Source: Candidatus Caribbeanibacter nitroreducens (GTDB lineage: Bacteria; Gemmatimonadota; Gemmatimonadetes; Palauibacterales; Palauibacteraceae). From it: a stretch of 63,875 nt of DNA. The position numbers and the translations under genes are program-made. Shown one piece after another: positions 41,535-48,247 of the stretch. The first letter of the stretch is position 1; each line of letters begins with the position of its first letter. The notes beneath the pieces are model-generated. The model was not told where the DNA came from. It was given only the letters and a program-made list of their open reading frames with translations, and searched no databases. The stretch spans positions 1-63,875 of the forward strand of contig CANPVF010000022.1 of NCBI GenBank assembly GCA_947581645.1, given 5' to 3'.

Positions 41535-41761
41535 GTGACCTCCGGACAGGGATGGTGCGCGGCCGACCCCGGAATCCGTTCCGGGTCCGGCCGGGGGCTC
41601 GGGCGGCGCGGACGTCCGGTCGCCCACGGGGAACACAGATTGCGCTTCGGATTCGATGGCTCAAGCTGACGCGCGCGGACGAGGTCGACAAGTCTCATGA
41701 AGGCCAGCCAGCCTTCGACGCGCTGACCTCCGAGCGCGGACAACCGACACGGGAGGCGACG

Positions 41762-42295
41762 ATGGAGATTCAGGTCGACGACGTGCAGATCGAGGCCGTC
41801 CGGGGAGACATCACCAGCCAGCCCGACGTCGACGCCGTGGTCAACGCCGCCAACGCGGAGCTCCGCACCGGGGGCGGCGTGGCCGGGGCGATCCACCGGG
41901 CCGCGGGCCCCGGCCTCGAGGAGGAGTGCCGCCCGCTGGCGCCCATCGAGCCCGGCGAGGCCGTGATCACCGGCGGGCACGACCTGCCGAACCCGCACGT
42001 GATCCACGCCCTGGGCCCGGTCTACGGCCGGGACGAGCCCTCGGACGAGCTGCTGGCGGCCTGCTATCGCAACTCGCTGGCCCGGGCGGAGGAGAAGGAG
42101 CTCGGCTCCGTGGCCTTCCCGGCCATCTCCACCGGCGCCTTCGGCTACCCGATGCGGGAGGCGGCGGAGGTGGCGGTCTCCACGCTGGTGGAGGAGGCGC
42201 CCGGGCTGGAGCACGTGCGCCGGATCCGCTTCTGCCTCTTCGGCGAGGACGCCCTGGAGGCCCACGAGGAGGCGCTGGAGAAGCACGGGGGCTGA
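41762..42295 (+). CDS. Macro-domain (ADP-ribose-binding) protein
   Basis: A 177-residue stand-alone macro domain of the YmdB/MacroD type: RGDITSQPDVDAVVNAANAELRTGGGVAGAIHRAAG, then VIHALGPVYG and AFPAISTGAFGYPMREAAEVA. NAANxxLxxGGGVxGAIH binds ADP-ribose, and the second loop (STGAFGYP) holds the phosphates. Members hydrolyse O-acetyl-ADP-ribose or remove ADP-ribose from proteins. ATG 41762 follows GGGAGGCGACG. It is divergent from the small membrane protein and convergent with dnaE2, whose 3' side carries a dispersed repeat. Confidence 0.92.
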   Translation: MEIQVDDVQIEAVRGDITSQPDVDAVVNAANAELRTGGGVAGAIHRAAGPGLEEECRPLAPIEPGEAVITGGHDLPNPHVIHALGPVYGRDEPSDELLAACYRNSLARAEEKELGSVAFPAISTGAFGYPMREAAEVAVSTLVEEAPGLEHVRRIRFCLFGEDALEAHEEALEKHGG

Positions 42296-42334
42296 CCCGC
42301 GGCGCCTTGTCACCGGGCCTCCGTCACCCCGTCC

Positions 42335-42427
42335 TCGCTCGGGCTGTCGCTATCGTTCCGGAGCTAACTCGGACGCTGCGCGTCCTCGTGGATCTCCTTC
42401 ACTGCGACAGAGTCGCTCGTCCGGGGC
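42335..42427 (+). repeat. 93-bp structured repeat, intergenic copy
   Basis: Compared with the minus-strand copy at 45115-45207, 86 of 93 positions are identical without gaps. Two internal stems are conserved: GGACGC/GCGTCC (3-nt loop, loop bases differ, stem intact) and GCGAC/GTCGC (loop AGA). CTGTCGC near the left end can pair with GCGACAG near the right end. It lies 40 bp past the macro-domain stop and 49 bp beyond the dnaE2 stop. No coding potential or transposase is attached. Confidence 0.85.
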
Positions 42428-42475
42428 GCGGAGGGCCCGGCTCTGGAGCGCCGCGCATCTCCGCGTGAGAATTCC

Positions 42476-45400
42476 TCACCGGAAGTCGCGGCTGGTGACC
42501 TCCCCGGCGCCCGCCCGGGGGTCCACCGCGAAGACCCGCTCCGTCTGCACGTTCACCACCTCCCCCTCCCGCTCCACGATCCCCTCCATGCGGAGCACGG
42601 GGCTGCGGACCAGCACGGAGCGGCGCTCCTCCAGCAGGTCCGGGGTGACCACGAAGTTGGCGAAGCCGGTCTCGTCCTCCAGGGTGACGAACATCACGCC
42701 CCGGGCCGTCTTCGGCCGCTGGCGGACGATGGCGATCCCGGCCACCGCCACCTCGGCCCCGGCGGGCTGACGGGCCAGCTCCTCCGCCGACAGCACCCCC
42801 TTCCGCCGCAGCCGCTCCCGCAGGAACTCCATGGGATGCCCCTCCGTGGAGAGGCCCACCGTGCGGTAGTCCGCCCGCACCCGCTCCGCCCGGGAGAGGG
42901 GCGGGAGGCCGGCGCGGCGCGGAGGCTCATCGTCCGCCGCTGCGCCCCCGCCCGTCTCCGCGGAGACGTCTCCGGCCGAGCTCCCGCTCCCCTCCCCACT
43001 CCCGTCGCCGGCCCGGGGGCGGGGCGCCAGGGGCCCGGCGTCGCCCCGGAGCTCCCTGAGCAGCTCCCACAGCGCCTCCCGGCGGCCGGGCCACAGGGAG
43101 TCGAAGGCGCCGGCCTCGGCCAGGGTCCTCAGCTCCGGCTCGCCCAGGCCGCTCCGCTCCACCACGTCCTCCACGGAGGTGAAGGGGCCCTCCTCGCGGG
43201 CCCGCCTCAGCTCCTCCTCGGCGCGGCTGCCCAGCCCCCGCACCAGGCGGAGCCCCATCCGCAGGGCGGGGGCGTCGCCGCCCTCCCGCGGCTCCAGGGT
43301 GCAGTCCCACGCCGAGCGGGCCAGGTCCACGGGCCGCACCTCCACGCCGTGCCGCTTCGCGTCCTCCACCAGCGTGGAGGGGGCGTAGAAGCCCATGGGC
43401 TGGGCGTTCAGCGTGGCGCAGAAGAACTCCGGCGCGAAGTGCCGCTTCAGGTACGAGGACGCGTAGACCAGCAGCGCGAAGCTCAGGGCGTGGCTCTCCG
43501 GGAAGCCGTAGTTGGAGAAGGCGGTGAGCTGCCGGAACACCTTCTCCCGGGCCTCCGGCGGCACGTCGTTCTCCTCCAAACCCTCGGCCAGCTCCCGCCC
43601 CACGCGGCTCATCTCCCGCTCCGAGCGCTTGAAGCCCATGGCCCGCCGCAGCCGGTCGGCCTGGGCCGGGGTGAAGCCCGCCAGCTCGATGGCCACCCGC
43701 ATCCCCTGCTCCTGGAAGAGCGGCACGCCCAGGGTCCGCTCCAGCACCGGCTTCAGCCGTTCGTCCAGGTAGGTCACCTCCTCCTCGCCCCGCCGGCGCC
43801 GCAGGTAGGGGTGGACCATCTCCCCCTGGATGGGACCGGGCCGGATCAGCGCCACCTCGATGGCCAGGTCGTAGAAGGAGCGCGGCTCCACCCGGGGGAG
43901 GGTGTTCATCTGCGCCCGGGACTCGATCTGGAACACCCCCACCGTGTCCGCCTCGCAGATCATGTCGTAGGTGGCCCCGTCCCCCTGCGGGATCTCCGCC
44001 AGGTCCAGGGACACGCCCCGGGTCCGGCGCAGGTGGGCCAGCGTCTCGCCCAGCACCGTGAGCATGCCGAGGCCCAGCAGGTCGATCTTGATCATCCCCA
44101 CCAGGGCCAGGTCGTCCTTGTCCCACTGGATGATGGTCCGCCCCTCCATGGAGGCCTCCTCCACGGGCACCGTCTCCCCCACCGGCCGTTTCCCGATCAC
44201 GAAGCCGCCCACGTGGATCGACCGGTGCCGGGGCAGGCGGTCCAGGCCGCGGACCACGTGGATCAGGGCCCGGGTCCGCGCCGCTCCCGGGTCCAGCCCC
44301 GCCCGGGCGGCGCCCCCCTCCTCCAGCCGCCCGGCGGCGTCCTCCGCCTCCCCGCGGTCCACCTCCGCCGCCAGCTCGTCGGCGGTCTCCTGCCCGAAGC
44401 CCAGCACCCGGGCCGCGTCGCGGACCGCCATCCGCCCCCGGTAGGTGATGCTCTCGCACACCATGGCCGCGTGGTCCCGCCCGTAGCGCCGGTAGACGTA
44501 CTGCAGCACCTCCTCCCGGTCGTCGTGGGCGATGTCCAGGTCGATGTCCGGCGCCTCGCCCCGCTCCTCCGACAGGAAGCGCTCGAAGAGCAGGTCCATG
44601 CCCACCGGGTCCACGGCCGTGATCCCCAGGCAGTAGCAGACCGCCGAGTTCGCCGCCGACCCCCGCCCCTGCACCAGGATCCCCCGCCGATTCGCGAATC
44701 GCACGATGTCCCAGACGATGAGGAAGTAGTCCGCCAGCTCCAGTCGCTGGACGACGTCCAGCTCGTGCTCGATCTGCTCGCGGTGCTCCGGGCCGAAGTC
44801 CTCTCCGTACCGCTCGCGGGCCCCCTGCCCCACCAGGGCCCGGAGGAACTCCCCCGAGGAGCGGCCGCCCGGGACGTCGAAGGAGGGGAGGCGGGGCTCC
44901 AGGTCCGAGATCCGAAAGGAGCAGCTCTCCGCGACCCGGGCGGTGCGGCGGAGGGCGCGGCAGCCCCTGCAAGTGCACGGGGAGGCCCCGGGACGGCTCG
45001 ATCGCTCGGAGGGAGTCGCTCCCTCGCCGTCCCGGGCGCCTCCCCTCGCGCGGTGGGTGGAGTCGTCCCGCCCGGTGCCCGGTGCTCCCGGTGGCGACGC
45101 GGGGGAGTCCGGGGCCCCGGACGAGCGACTCTGTCGCAGCGAAGGAGATCCGGGAGGACGCGAAGCGTCCGAGCTAGCTCCGGAGCGATCGCGACAGCCC
45201 GAGCGAGACCGGGGCCCCGGATCCCCCCGCTCGCACCACCGCACCCGCATCTGGCGGGCCGACTTCAGATACCACTCGCCGTTGGGGCGCAGGCGGTCGC
45301 CGGCCCCGTCCAGGGTGACGTCGTGGCGGAGGCAGGTGAGCACGTCCTGGACGATCCGGTCCCGGGGGCGGGCGTAGAGGGGCGCGTTCACCGGGAGCCA

Positions 45401-45979
45401 GGGGATCCCGGCCTCCTCCGCCCGCTCGACCCACGCCGCGCACGCCCGGGCCTCCTCCGGCAGGCCGTGGTGCTCCAGGGCCAGGTACAGACGGTCGCCG
45501 AAGAGACGATCGAGCTGCTCCAGGACGGGCGGCGTCTCCGCGGAGACGTCTCCGCCCCCGGCGACGACCCGGGCCAGGGCCACGACCCCCTGCGTGCGTC
45601 CCTTCAGGACGCCCCGCGGGAGCGAGGGCTCGCCCCGGGGGTTGGAGCGGCGGGCCCGGGTGATCAGCGACGAGAGGTTCGCGTACCCCTCCCGGTTCCG
45701 ACACAGGAGCACGACCGGCGGCCACCCCTCCCGCCTCACCTCGCCCCCCACCAGCGGCTCCACGCCCTCCGCCCGGCAGGCCCGGGCGAAGCGGACCGCC
45801 CCGCCCAGGTCGAAGCGGTCCGTCAGGGCCAGGGCCGGGGCGCCGATCTCGCCGGCCCGCTCGGCCAGGGCCTCCGGCGTGGAGGCCCCCTCCAGGAGGG
45901 TGAAGGCGGAGCGGGCGGCCAGCTCCACGTAGGGGGGCGAGTCGCCGTCCGGGGACGGCCCGCCGCTCAGTCCCACCAT
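42476..45979 (-). CDS. dnaE2: Error-prone DNA polymerase DnaE2 (ImuC) with in-frame repeat insertion
   Basis: A 1167-residue C-family polymerase for mutagenic translesion synthesis, the catalytic part of the ImuA-ImuB-DnaE2 mutasome. Catalytic Asp residues are in APDIDLDIAHDDREE, and the palm motif GRGSAANSAVCY is present. A helix-hairpin-helix and an OB fold occupy the C-terminal third. The N-terminal PHP domain is degenerate: the usual HxH and downstream His are replaced (ELAARSAF, LTDRFDL). Residues about 249-343 are an Arg/Ser/Pro/Gly-rich segment absent from the family, placed just before RTARVAESCSF. The ATG at 45979 overlaps imuB by 13 nt. Confidence 0.92.
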   Translation of the reverse strand: MVGLSGGPSPDGDSPPYVELAARSAFTLLEGASTPEALAERAGEIGAPALALTDRFDLGGAVRFARACRAEGVEPLVGGEVRREGWPPVVLLCRNREGYANLSSLITRARRSNPRGEPSLPRGVLKGRTQGVVALARVVAGGGDVSAETPPVLEQLDRLFGDRLYLALEHHGLPEEARACAAWVERAEEAGIPWLPVNAPLYARPRDRIVQDVLTCLRHDVTLDGAGDRLRPNGEWYLKSARQMRVRWCERGDPGPRSRSGCRDRSGASSDASRPPGSPSLRQSRSSGAPDSPASPPGAPGTGRDDSTHRARGGARDGEGATPSERSSRPGASPCTCRGCRALRRTARVAESCSFRISDLEPRLPSFDVPGGRSSGEFLRALVGQGARERYGEDFGPEHREQIEHELDVVQRLELADYFLIVWDIVRFANRRGILVQGRGSAANSAVCYCLGITAVDPVGMDLLFERFLSEERGEAPDIDLDIAHDDREEVLQYVYRRYGRDHAAMVCESITYRGRMAVRDAARVLGFGQETADELAAEVDRGEAEDAAGRLEEGGAARAGLDPGAARTRALIHVVRGLDRLPRHRSIHVGGFVIGKRPVGETVPVEEASMEGRTIIQWDKDDLALVGMIKIDLLGLGMLTVLGETLAHLRRTRGVSLDLAEIPQGDGATYDMICEADTVGVFQIESRAQMNTLPRVEPRSFYDLAIEVALIRPGPIQGEMVHPYLRRRRGEEEVTYLDERLKPVLERTLGVPLFQEQGMRVAIELAGFTPAQADRLRRAMGFKRSEREMSRVGRELAEGLEENDVPPEAREKVFRQLTAFSNYGFPESHALSFALLVYASSYLKRHFAPEFFCATLNAQPMGFYAPSTLVEDAKRHGVEVRPVDLARSAWDCTLEPREGGDAPALRMGLRLVRGLGSRAEEELRRAREEGPFTSVEDVVERSGLGEPELRTLAEAGAFDSLWPGRREALWELLRELRGDAGPLAPRPRAGDGSGEGSGSSAGDVSAETGGGAAADDEPPRRAGLPPLSRAERVRADYRTVGLSTEGHPMEFLRERLRRKGVLSAEELARQPAGAEVAVAGIAIVRQRPKTARGVMFVTLEDETGFANFVVTPDLLEERRSVLVRSPVLRMEGIVEREGEVVNVQTERVFAVDPRAGAGEVTSRDFR
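42953..42974. repeat. 22-bp palindrome-based repeat, copy 1 (in dnaE2)
   Basis: Contains the perfect 16-bp palindrome CGTCTCCGCGGAGACG followed by TCTCCG. The full 22 bp are identical to 45533-45554. In the dnaE2 frame it encodes GDVSAET between two low-complexity stretches near the C-terminus. Confidence 0.7.
44987..45036. repeat. Nested hairpin inside the dnaE2 insertion
   Basis: An outer 11-bp perfect stem CCCGGGACGGC/GCCGTCCCGGG encloses an inner 7-bp stem GAGGGAG/CTCCCTC with loop TCG at 45009-45025. The 50-bp unit looks like a palindromic repeat element rather than protein-driven sequence. Confidence 0.7.
45115..45207 (-). repeat. 93-bp structured repeat, copy inside dnaE2
   Basis: On the minus strand this copy begins TCGCTCGGGCTGTCGC and ends GAGTCGCTCGTCCGGGGC. 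It matches the intergenic copy at 42335-42427 at 86 of 93 bases. Here two further perfect palindromes (GCTCCGGAGC and GAGCTAGCTC) are intact that are broken by single changes in the other copy. It is read through as coding sequence. Confidence 0.85.
45533..45554. repeat. 22-bp palindrome-based repeat, copy 2 (in dnaE2)
   Basis: Identical over 22 bp to 42953-42974 and again encodes GDVSAET in the dnaE2 frame, at about residues 143-149 in a linker of the N-terminal domain. Confidence 0.7.
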
Positions 45980-47391
45980 CCGTGCAGCCACCAGCGGGGC
46001 TCCCCGTCCTCCGCCGCCTCCCGGTACAGCCACAGCAGCTCGCCGGCCTCCGTGCACACCCGGTAGTACTCGCGCCGGTACGGGTCCCGCCACCAGTCGC
46101 CGGACAGCCGCTCCGGCCCCTCGGCGGCGGCCAGCTCGTGGACGCCCCCGTCGTCCCGGAGGGCCGCCGGGCGGTCGCCGTCGGCCCGCACGCCGACCCG
46201 ACGCGGCTCCGGCAGGAGGCGGAGGACGCCGGGGACCCCGCCGTCCTCCGCGGAGAGACGATCGTCCCTCTCGCCGGCACTCCCGCCGGACTCCCCGCCG
46301 GGCGCGGGCCGGTCGCCGGCCTCCACGGGCCGCCACCGGCTCCGCCTCTCCGGCCGGTGGTCCGGGAGCGGGTCCGGGCGCACGACCCACTCCTCGTCCG
46401 GGGCCCGGGCCCGGAGCCGGGCCAGCGTGGCGGCCACGGCGGCGGGGTCCCGCCTCCCGGATGCGAAGAGGTCCCCCTGGCGCACTTCCGCCGGCGCCCG
46501 CTCCGGGACTTCGACAGCCACGGCGGCCACCGGCGCCGGGAGGCCCGTTCCGTCCGGCGCTCCCTCGGCCCGCTCCAGGGCCGCCCGGCACAGGTCCAGG
46601 AGCAGGTCCTCCCGCCGGGTGGGACGGGCCGGCGCGATCTCCGCCTCCTTCGTCTCCCCGCCGTCGGTCTCGAGCCGCAGGAGGACCCGCTCCGCGCACC
46701 GCCCCTCCTCCTCCAGGTCGCCGCACAGGCGGGCCAGGAGCCTCCGCAGCACGAAGAGGAGGGGCTCGGTCTCCCGCACCGCGCCGTCGAGCTCCATGGA
46801 CGCCGACGGCACGGGCTCCGGCGAGAGGGCCGGGAAGACCCGATCGTCCTCCCCCCGGGCCCAGCGGTGCAGGCGGATCCCCTCCGGCCCGAACCGGGCC
46901 TCCAGCTCCTCCCGGTCCCGGGCGGCCACCTTGCCCACCCGGCCGAGCCCCAGGGTGCGGAGCGTCTCCTTCGTCTCCTCGGAGACGGGCAGCAGGCCCA
47001 CCGGGAGGGAGGCCAGGAAGGCCGCCTCCTCTCCGGCCGGGACGATCACCGTCGGCTCGTCCCCGCCGCTCCCCTCCCCGCCCCATTCCTCACGGAGGAT
47101 CGCCAGGCGGGAAGCGGCGTCCGCCGCCACGCCGGACCCCGCGATCCCCACGCCGGCCGGATCCGCCTCCCGGCGCCGGACTGCCCGGTGGAGGCGACGG
47201 GCCAGCGCCTCCCCGCCGCCCCGCCGCTCCCAGCCGCGGGCGTCGGCCCGGCACAGGCCGGGGCCGGCCACCGCCACCCGGGGCGTGGCCTCGAAGAGGG
47301 CGGTGGCCAGCTCCCGGGTCCGGGTCAGGTCCCCGTCCTCCCCGAGCGCCGGGAGGCAGACCGAGGCGACGCGCTCCCTCCCGCCGGTCAT
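45967..47391 (-). CDS. imuB: ImuB-like catalytically inactive Y-family polymerase homologue
   Basis: A 474-residue ImuB, the adaptor that links DnaE2 to the beta clamp and ImuA. Recognisable parts are the ATPRVAVAGPGLCRADARGWERRGGGEALARRLHRAV stretch, corresponding to the palm region with the GGE motif, a VGLLPVSEETKETLRTLGLGRVGKVAA helix-hairpin-helix, and the C-terminal DWWRDPYRREYYRVCTEAGELLWLYREAAEDG region typical of ImuB tails. About 60-70 residues normally present between the N-terminal strand and the palm core appear to be missing, and no catalytic Asp/Glu triad is present. ATG 47391 overlaps the imuA stop by 4 nt. Confidence 0.85.
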   Translation of the reverse strand: MTGGRERVASVCLPALGEDGDLTRTRELATALFEATPRVAVAGPGLCRADARGWERRGGGEALARRLHRAVRRREADPAGVGIAGSGVAADAASRLAILREEWGGEGSGGDEPTVIVPAGEEAAFLASLPVGLLPVSEETKETLRTLGLGRVGKVAARDREELEARFGPEGIRLHRWARGEDDRVFPALSPEPVPSASMELDGAVRETEPLLFVLRRLLARLCGDLEEEGRCAERVLLRLETDGGETKEAEIAPARPTRREDLLLDLCRAALERAEGAPDGTGLPAPVAAVAVEVPERAPAEVRQGDLFASGRRDPAAVAATLARLRARAPDEEWVVRPDPLPDHRPERRSRWRPVEAGDRPAPGGESGGSAGERDDRLSAEDGGVPGVLRLLPEPRRVGVRADGDRPAALRDDGGVHELAAAEGPERLSGDWWRDPYRREYYRVCTEAGELLWLYREAAEDGEPRWWLHGWWD

Positions 47392-48170
47392 CGCCTCCCC
47401 TTCCGGTCCCGACCGGACGCGGGGACCGAGCGGCGCGGGAGCTCGGGGCACAGCACCGGCACCTCGCGTCTCCCGCCCGAGCCGGGGAGCCGGACCCAGA
47501 GGGGACGGAAGCCCGGGAGGAACGGGCCGAAGAGGCGCTTCCCCACGGGCTCCACGCGCCCGGGCCGGAAGCGGAGGCGGAGGGCCGCCACGGGGAGCCG
47601 GCCGGCCGCCACGAAGAGGGAGCCCGACTCCTCCGCCAGTCGCTGGAGGCGGATCACGGCGCTTCGCCCCAGGGCCGGCGCGCCGCTCTCCCGACGTCCC
47701 CCCGCCTCCCGGCCGGCTCCGCCGTCTTCCGGCGACGCCGGTGCCTCACCACCCGGGACCAGGGCCACGCCCCCGAAGGCCCCGCTCCGGAGCAGGAGGT
47801 CGGCACACCAGCTCGCCTCCTGCGGGTCCGAGGGCCGGACGACCCAGAAGCCGCTGTCCTCGCCGGCCAGGGGCGCCCAGTCCGGCGCGTACAGGGTCCG
47901 GCGGGCGTCCACCAGGGCCACGCTCTCGCCGCGGGCCCGGAGCCGGGCGAGCACGGAGCGGAGGAGCGCGGTCTTCCCGCAGGAGCGGGGTCCGACCCAC
48001 TCCACCGCCTCCCCGCGGGGGAGGCCGCCGCGGGGGAGGAGCTCGTCCAGGGCGTCGACGCCGGTGGGCGCCACCTCCCCGCCGGACTCCGGGACCCTGG
48101 ACGGGGAGCGGCTCTCCTGCAGGCGGTCGATCCTCCGCTCGAGCTTCTCGATGACGGCGGAATCGGCCAT
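47388..48170 (-). CDS. imuA: ImuA, RecA-like mutasome protein
   Basis: A 260-residue RecA-fold protein. After a short coiled N-terminus (IEKLERRIDRL) comes PTGVDALDELLPRGGLPRGEAVEWVGPRSCGKTALLRSVLARL with a Walker A-like GPRSCGKT. Then come a SVALVDARRTLYAPDWAPL segment and the C-terminal RLRFRPGRVEPVGKRLFGPFLPGFRPLWVRLPG. ImuA inhibits RecA strand exchange and supports SOS mutagenesis. ATG 48170 has AGGAGGAGACG upstream; an in-frame GTG at 48191 is less likely. It is first in the operon and lies downstream of a well-formed promoter with repeated operators. Confidence 0.85.
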   Translation of the reverse strand: MADSAVIEKLERRIDRLQESRSPSRVPESGGEVAPTGVDALDELLPRGGLPRGEAVEWVGPRSCGKTALLRSVLARLRARGESVALVDARRTLYAPDWAPLAGEDSGFWVVRPSDPQEASWCADLLLRSGAFGGVALVPGGEAPASPEDGGAGREAGGRRESGAPALGRSAVIRLQRLAEESGSLFVAAGRLPVAALRLRFRPGRVEPVGKRLFGPFLPGFRPLWVRLPGSGGRREVPVLCPELPRRSVPASGRDRKGRR

Positions 48171-48247
48171 CGTCTCCTCCTGCGTCTCCACGGGCCGGGC
48201 CGGGAGGCGGGAGCCGGCCGCGCGGTACGGCCGGGCGGAGCCACCTC

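Follow-up and report, generated by a model that had tools for sequence, protein, structure and literature searches.

Palindromic elements located inside protein-coding genes have been described in several bacteria. The RPEs of Rickettsia (Ogata 2000, 2002, as described in PMC2229807 and PMC10969869) are 105-146 bp long and can be inserted in frame in genes of this genus; a Rickettsia protein with an in-frame RPE stayed active (PMC2229807). Intragenic REPs often have as hosts genes of DNA synthesis or repair, including DnaE2, in several phyla (Di Nocera 2013, PMC3733652), and DnaE2 is sometimes the sole REP-tagged gene of a species (PMC3733652). These published cases contradict the preliminary description of the DNA analyzed here, which held that in-frame palindromes are known mainly from Rickettsia. 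The gene dnaE2 is non-essential where tested (PMC3919608), which would lower the cost of an insertion.

We analyzed a stretch of 63,875 nt from Candidatus Caribbeanibacter nitroreducens (hereafter, the window). As reported initially, it contains two ungapped 93-bp copies of one sequence in opposite orientations, about 86 of the 93 positions being identical (Table 1). No other inverted repeat of the window comes close to this pair in length: its arms measure 113 nt, are 88% complementary and lie 2686 nt from each other, and the runner-up spans 72 nt with 71% complementarity. Using blastn within the genome, the second copy was recovered from the first well beyond chance expectation (E = 4e-34). 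The outer copy is located within the 181-bp gap separating the convergent macrodomain and dnaE2 genes. The inner copy was said to lie in frame within dnaE2 with an open reading frame, and we confirmed it: the protein reads through both hairpins of the insert as DnaE2, with ImuA and ImuB adjoining.

Table 1. Coordinates of the palindromic elements and neighboring genes (positions in the window).
Feature	Position	Strand	Remarks
Macrodomain gene	41552..42295	+	Convergent with dnaE2; start uncertain
Outer palindromic element	42315..42438	+	Core 42335-42427; terminal stems 42315-42331 (GGGCCTCCGtcaCCCCG) / 42422-42438 (CGGGGcgcGGAGGGCCC)
dnaE2, error-prone DNA polymerase	42476..45979	-	NCBIfam, Pfam; start codon inferred
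DnaE2 site-1 insert	44960..45235	-	92 codons, C ... CxCxGC, predicted disordered; peptide stretch SRSGCRDRSGASSDAS... as translated in silico
Second hairpin of DnaE2 insert	44979..45046	-	z -5.9 / -6.6; distinct from the 93-bp repeat
Inner palindromic element	45099..45230	-	Core 45115-45207; terminal stems CCGGGGCCCCGG/CCGGGGCCCCGG, 45109-45120 and 45209-45220
imuB, Y-family homologue with IMS_C domain	45967..47451	-	
imuA, RecA-like	47388..48191	-	

The expectation that an element family had spread through this genome was not borne out. Searching the 2.96 Mb assembly (96% complete) by blastn with the core, and with a more extended query under a lenient cutoff, we found no further copies beyond these two, both at dnaE2, and no further members emerged when 637 kb of the same genome were scanned for hairpins. 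BLAST searches of 100 relatives retrieved no copy of the core apart from short chance-like matches; those of ~30 bp in 20 relatives were set aside as chance because they were short and lacked a matching hairpin where checked. An exact 21-mer of the core was absent from 84,980 GTDB species genomes, and the cores were absent from viral contigs, phages and plasmids.

The structured repeat is real, but its 93 bp represent only the core of an imperfect palindrome whose whole unit is ~124-132 bp long. Folded alone, the core presents no extra structure (z about 0 relative to dinucleotide shuffles). Once the stems are included, z drops to -5.2 (minus strand) and -1.3 (plus strand) for the outer copy (42315-42445), and to -3.3 (plus strand) and -2.6 (minus strand) for the inner copy (45095-45225). 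The two cores are nearly alike, yet each copy has outer stems of its own sequence, each stem pair being self-complementary. The CGGGGCCCCG flanks that were noticed earlier around the inner copy do exist and correspond to one of these outer stems. Among 9040 sampled positions of the window, flanks pairing as well as those of the inner copy were found at 5 positions, and flanks pairing as well as those of the outer copy at 174. Across the 637 kb of the window's genome that were scanned, no long ungapped stem was stronger than that of the inner copy. The second hairpin of the insert, which is stronger in z-score than the repeat, shows only weak similarity to the inner element (p 0.03).

The DnaE2 protein was also described as carrying ~95 extra codons; the extra segment is there, and we placed its size at about 92 codons. 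It is absent from distant DnaE2 proteins, which read ...WYLKRPEKVAHRWRHYPEGIAATRAIAEQC..., and its position (site 1) maps to the gap that separates residues 261 and 274 in polymerase III alpha of Thermus aquaticus, where the PHP domain ends. Within the window's family (f1), the insert was found in the window's genus (g1) and in genera g2, g5 and g7, and it was absent from genera g3 and g4. The inserts range from 26 to 127 residues and the only sequence that they have in common is a cysteine frame, RW[C/H]...PCxCxGC. The ends of the repeat are not the borders of the insertion: five relatives (g2, g5, g7) carry a variable insert of other sequence at exactly the same site. The presence of a site-1 loop with different sequences in three other genera indicates that this hypervariable loop is older than the window's repeat, which sits inside it.

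We modeled the structure of this DnaE2 with AlphaFold2 using 35 aligned DnaE2 sequences. The mean pLDDT was 83.9, and residues 253-331 presented values of ~30 without secondary structure, between two well-predicted helices. The model suggests that the loop is probably a disordered surface segment. A metal knuckle may close its base. The RW[C/H] ... PCxCxGC frame was observed across four genera, in the window (44960-45235) and at loci L114, L115, L117, L118 and L119. In the frame of genome G022, C is replaced by H, a change compatible with a knuckle that binds metal at the base of the loop. At the DNA level, the site-1 loop forms strong hairpins in the window and in G007 (z -3.4 to -6.0), and in G006 it contains a palindrome spanning 276 bp (E 4e-20); the hairpin is weak in G022 and G010 and absent in G004.

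Hypervariable DnaE2 inserts were also found in the sister family (f2), at other sites: in the PHP domain, after ERYGG, and between SSWDCTLE and ALRIGLRF. These inserts hold a palindrome of ~115 bp that is multicopy: with the covariance model R1, six genomes yielded 16, 15, 7, 4, 2 and 1 copies. Its outer stem varies from copy to copy without loss of pairing (both sides changed in 44 cells, vs 13.7 in shuffles), and the covariation score of the stem was 0.263, relative to 0.118 +/- 0.012 when shuffled (0 of 500 shuffles as high). With a strict pattern, the family was found in only 4 of 395 genomes of the phylum. Nine of the ~43 placed copies are full and inside dnaE2 (two in G037, three in G040, three in G038 and one in G041), a count obtained with a search that was seeded with a dnaE2 copy and may enrich for dnaE2-like copies. 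They are in frame, occupy three loops, and are read in both orientations and in more than one frame. The remaining ~34 copies are intergenic or at gene edges and none lies within another gene, based on gene calls from codon-position composition, in which two copies flagged as in-gene outside dnaE2 look like start-codon extensions. Many f2 copies are located just 3' of stop codons or between convergent genes. In a tree of loci oriented by motif, dnaE2 copies fell into at least three subfamilies and were mixed with intergenic copies (7 changes vs 7.7 in shuffles); this scatter indicates repeated entry into dnaE2. The loci L169, L170, L172 and L173 (G040, G038, G037 and G041, respectively) share the conserved internal motifs CTCGCTTCATGTCGCGCG and GCGCTCCAAATGTCCGCTCG. 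Two other f2 palindromes, L224 and L231, lie directly upstream of two similar genes of G040 and G037, possibly in their leaders, and the proteins of these genes begin with MISRRDMLKTSGAALAGLA.

A third palindromic family, TCCTCGCTGCGCTGCGGAG..., was identified in genus g4 of f1, at the imuB-dnaE2 junction of G003, G015, G018 and G021. In G018 and, judging by position, in G003, one copy is inserted in frame inside dnaE2, and the family is present elsewhere in those genomes as well. Its palindromes were recorded at L177 (9590-9725), L175, L286 and L289, and two copies form an inverted pair ~240 bp apart in contig C303 of G003. We could not show sequence homology between the window, f2 and g4 families, which have architecture and host gene in common. 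The covariance model search proposed for the window's 93-bp element gave no significant match with the f2 model, whose best f1 matches follow the shape of the stem only. Shuffle tests of the window unit against f2, g4 and the loops of G006, G007, G010 and G004 were not significant, and the test against the G022 loop was borderline (p about 0.01). A likeness seen by eye between the window and f2 (CTCGCT..TGTCGCG) was lost in the tests. Overall, intragenic copies occupy four different DnaE2 sites in about ten species and three families.

We consider it probable, with moderate confidence, that the window's repeat is a non-autonomous palindromic element resembling RPEs or intragenic REPs, located in a tolerated loop of DnaE2. 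This reading brings together the two copies, their hairpins, the open frame, the loop of relatives at the same site, and the relatives' multicopy families with their dnaE2 insertions. The earlier proposal of a non-autonomous family able to enter protein genes holds insofar as the element is palindromic and in frame and multicopy families of relatives do enter dnaE2; in the window's genome, with just two copies, both at dnaE2, the simple mobile-family claim fails by the criterion that was proposed with it. The 93 bp would be the core of a lineage-specific hairpin repeat, with one copy sitting in the gap between the convergent genes and the other having entered, in frame, a permissive DnaE2 loop that existed beforehand. 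This latter copy would be read through as a disordered surface segment, the polymerase presumably being kept. The dnaE2 gene of this Gemmatimonadota order repeatedly accepts elements from families without demonstrated homology. The probable reasons are that the gene can be dispensed with, that its loops can vary in length, and that stop codons are rare in GC-rich palindromes. We infer that copying, not local rearrangement, moved the window's element and that the loop is translated and neutral. We counted against the mobile-element reading that the strength of the loop hairpin is uneven among relatives, being strong in the window and G007 and absent in G004.

For the window pair alone, local inverted duplication is a serious rival, and we regard it as a real, if tentative, possibility. 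During repair, template switching or strand exchange would have copied a hairpin from one end of dnaE2 to the other without any mobility of the element, and palindrome-templated repair would then have kept the stems self-complementary. Since there are just two copies, both at dnaE2, inverted and 2.7 kb apart, a local rearrangement explains this pair too. It is also consistent with stems that differ between the copies while each of them pairs, as templated correction of quasi-palindromes would yield differing yet self-pairing stems. However, the dispersed multicopy palindromes of the relatives enter dnaE2 at several loops and from several subfamilies, and element insertion is thus established in the clade.

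Another reading is that unrelated palindrome families converge on dnaE2 because hairpins are targeted to or selected in this gene, where they would tune the mutation rate through the expression or activity of the polymerase. A similar idea was speculated for REPs in repair genes by Di Nocera and colleagues (PMC3733652), and we judge it rather unlikely here. A function as nucleic acid appears improbable. The outer copy would then act as a two-way terminator or as an mRNA-stabilising hairpin, and the inner copy would form a structure in the mRNA by which the translation of dnaE2 is slowed or protected. The outer copy indeed fills the 181-bp convergent gap, and the covariation of the f2 stem and the many f2 copies just past stops or between convergent genes point in the same direction. 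These elements nevertheless match no Rfam family (no match above the gathering score in Rfam 15 for 19 loci, including the window, f2 and two f1 elements), the copies inside the gene are found in either orientation and spread over four DnaE2 sites, and their sequence families differ from genus to genus.

We also considered an invertible switch, in which recombination between the copies would flip the 2.7-kb polymerase part of dnaE2 and turn the mutator off or on. Long inverted repeats do flank the catalytic part of dnaE2, and homologous recombination is conceivable between 93-bp arms of ~92% identity. This scenario is very improbable given that no recombinase was found tied to the pair, that the sole genome of the genus shows one orientation, and that the copies of relatives are not at corresponding places. 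Finally, a disordered loop might simply have grown through low-complexity slippage, the repeat being due to chance. This would suit a loop that is S/R/P/G-rich, variable in length and predicted to be disordered, but it is hardly credible with a non-coding second copy (E 4e-34) and hairpins reaching z -6.6, and for the core it is refuted by the intergenic copy.

Our preferred reading, insertion of a non-autonomous palindromic element, can be compared with known systems. MITEs such as Correia/NEMIS, ERIC and RUP are likewise small, non-autonomous and palindromic, and some of them are fused in frame to genes. Unlike MITEs, the elements described here present no partner transposase and no TA at their termini as read; neither a target-site duplication nor an empty site could be read, the genus being represented by one genome and the borders of the loop being known at the protein level. 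The GTAG/CGTC REPs (PMC3733652) resemble our elements in being palindromes of replication and repair genes that are often found between convergent genes, and CGTC REPs lack a transposase (PMC3733652). REP units are 20-40 bp long with a terminal GTAG/CGTC tag and stems of 5-13 bp, whereas ours are ~115-132 bp long with stems >13 bp and, by eye, no recognisable GTAG/CGTC tag at the unit ends. A RAYT was ruled out as the mobiliser of the window and f2 elements: neither RAYT (Y1_Tnp, PF01797) nor an IS200/IS605-type transposase was found in G000, G037, G040, G038, G041 and G035.

The resemblance to RPEs concerns size (~124-132 bp here vs 105-146 bp), a long stem-loop shape, and placement both between genes and in frame within protein genes. 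In addition, no dedicated transposase is named for RPEs in the reviews PMC2229807 and PMC10969869, and none of the IS200/IS605 type was found here. The phylum is unrelated. RPEs are multicopy and inserted in many unrelated genes, whereas the window's family has two copies with dnaE2 as the sole host gene seen; f2 reaches 16 copies, yet dnaE2 is the only host gene found for it. Also unlike RPEs, the in-gene copies of f2 are read in both orientations and in more than one frame.

Our results add families of long, stem-covarying palindromes in a phylum that is not mentioned in the REP survey (PMC3733652). With three families without demonstrated homology, four DnaE2 sites and ~ten species, they constitute a replicated natural experiment in which a mutator gene is the repeated host, and in f2 no protein gene other than dnaE2 was found to harbor a copy. 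A direct comparison of DnaE2 proteins that have or lack these loops could thus address whether palindromes inside repair genes are neutral or affect mutagenesis. Relative to known systems, intragenic palindromes as a kind and DnaE2 as a target were already described; the new aspects are the occurrence in this phylum, hairpins that are long, covary and carry no REP tag, and the fact that these three families converge on one mutator gene.
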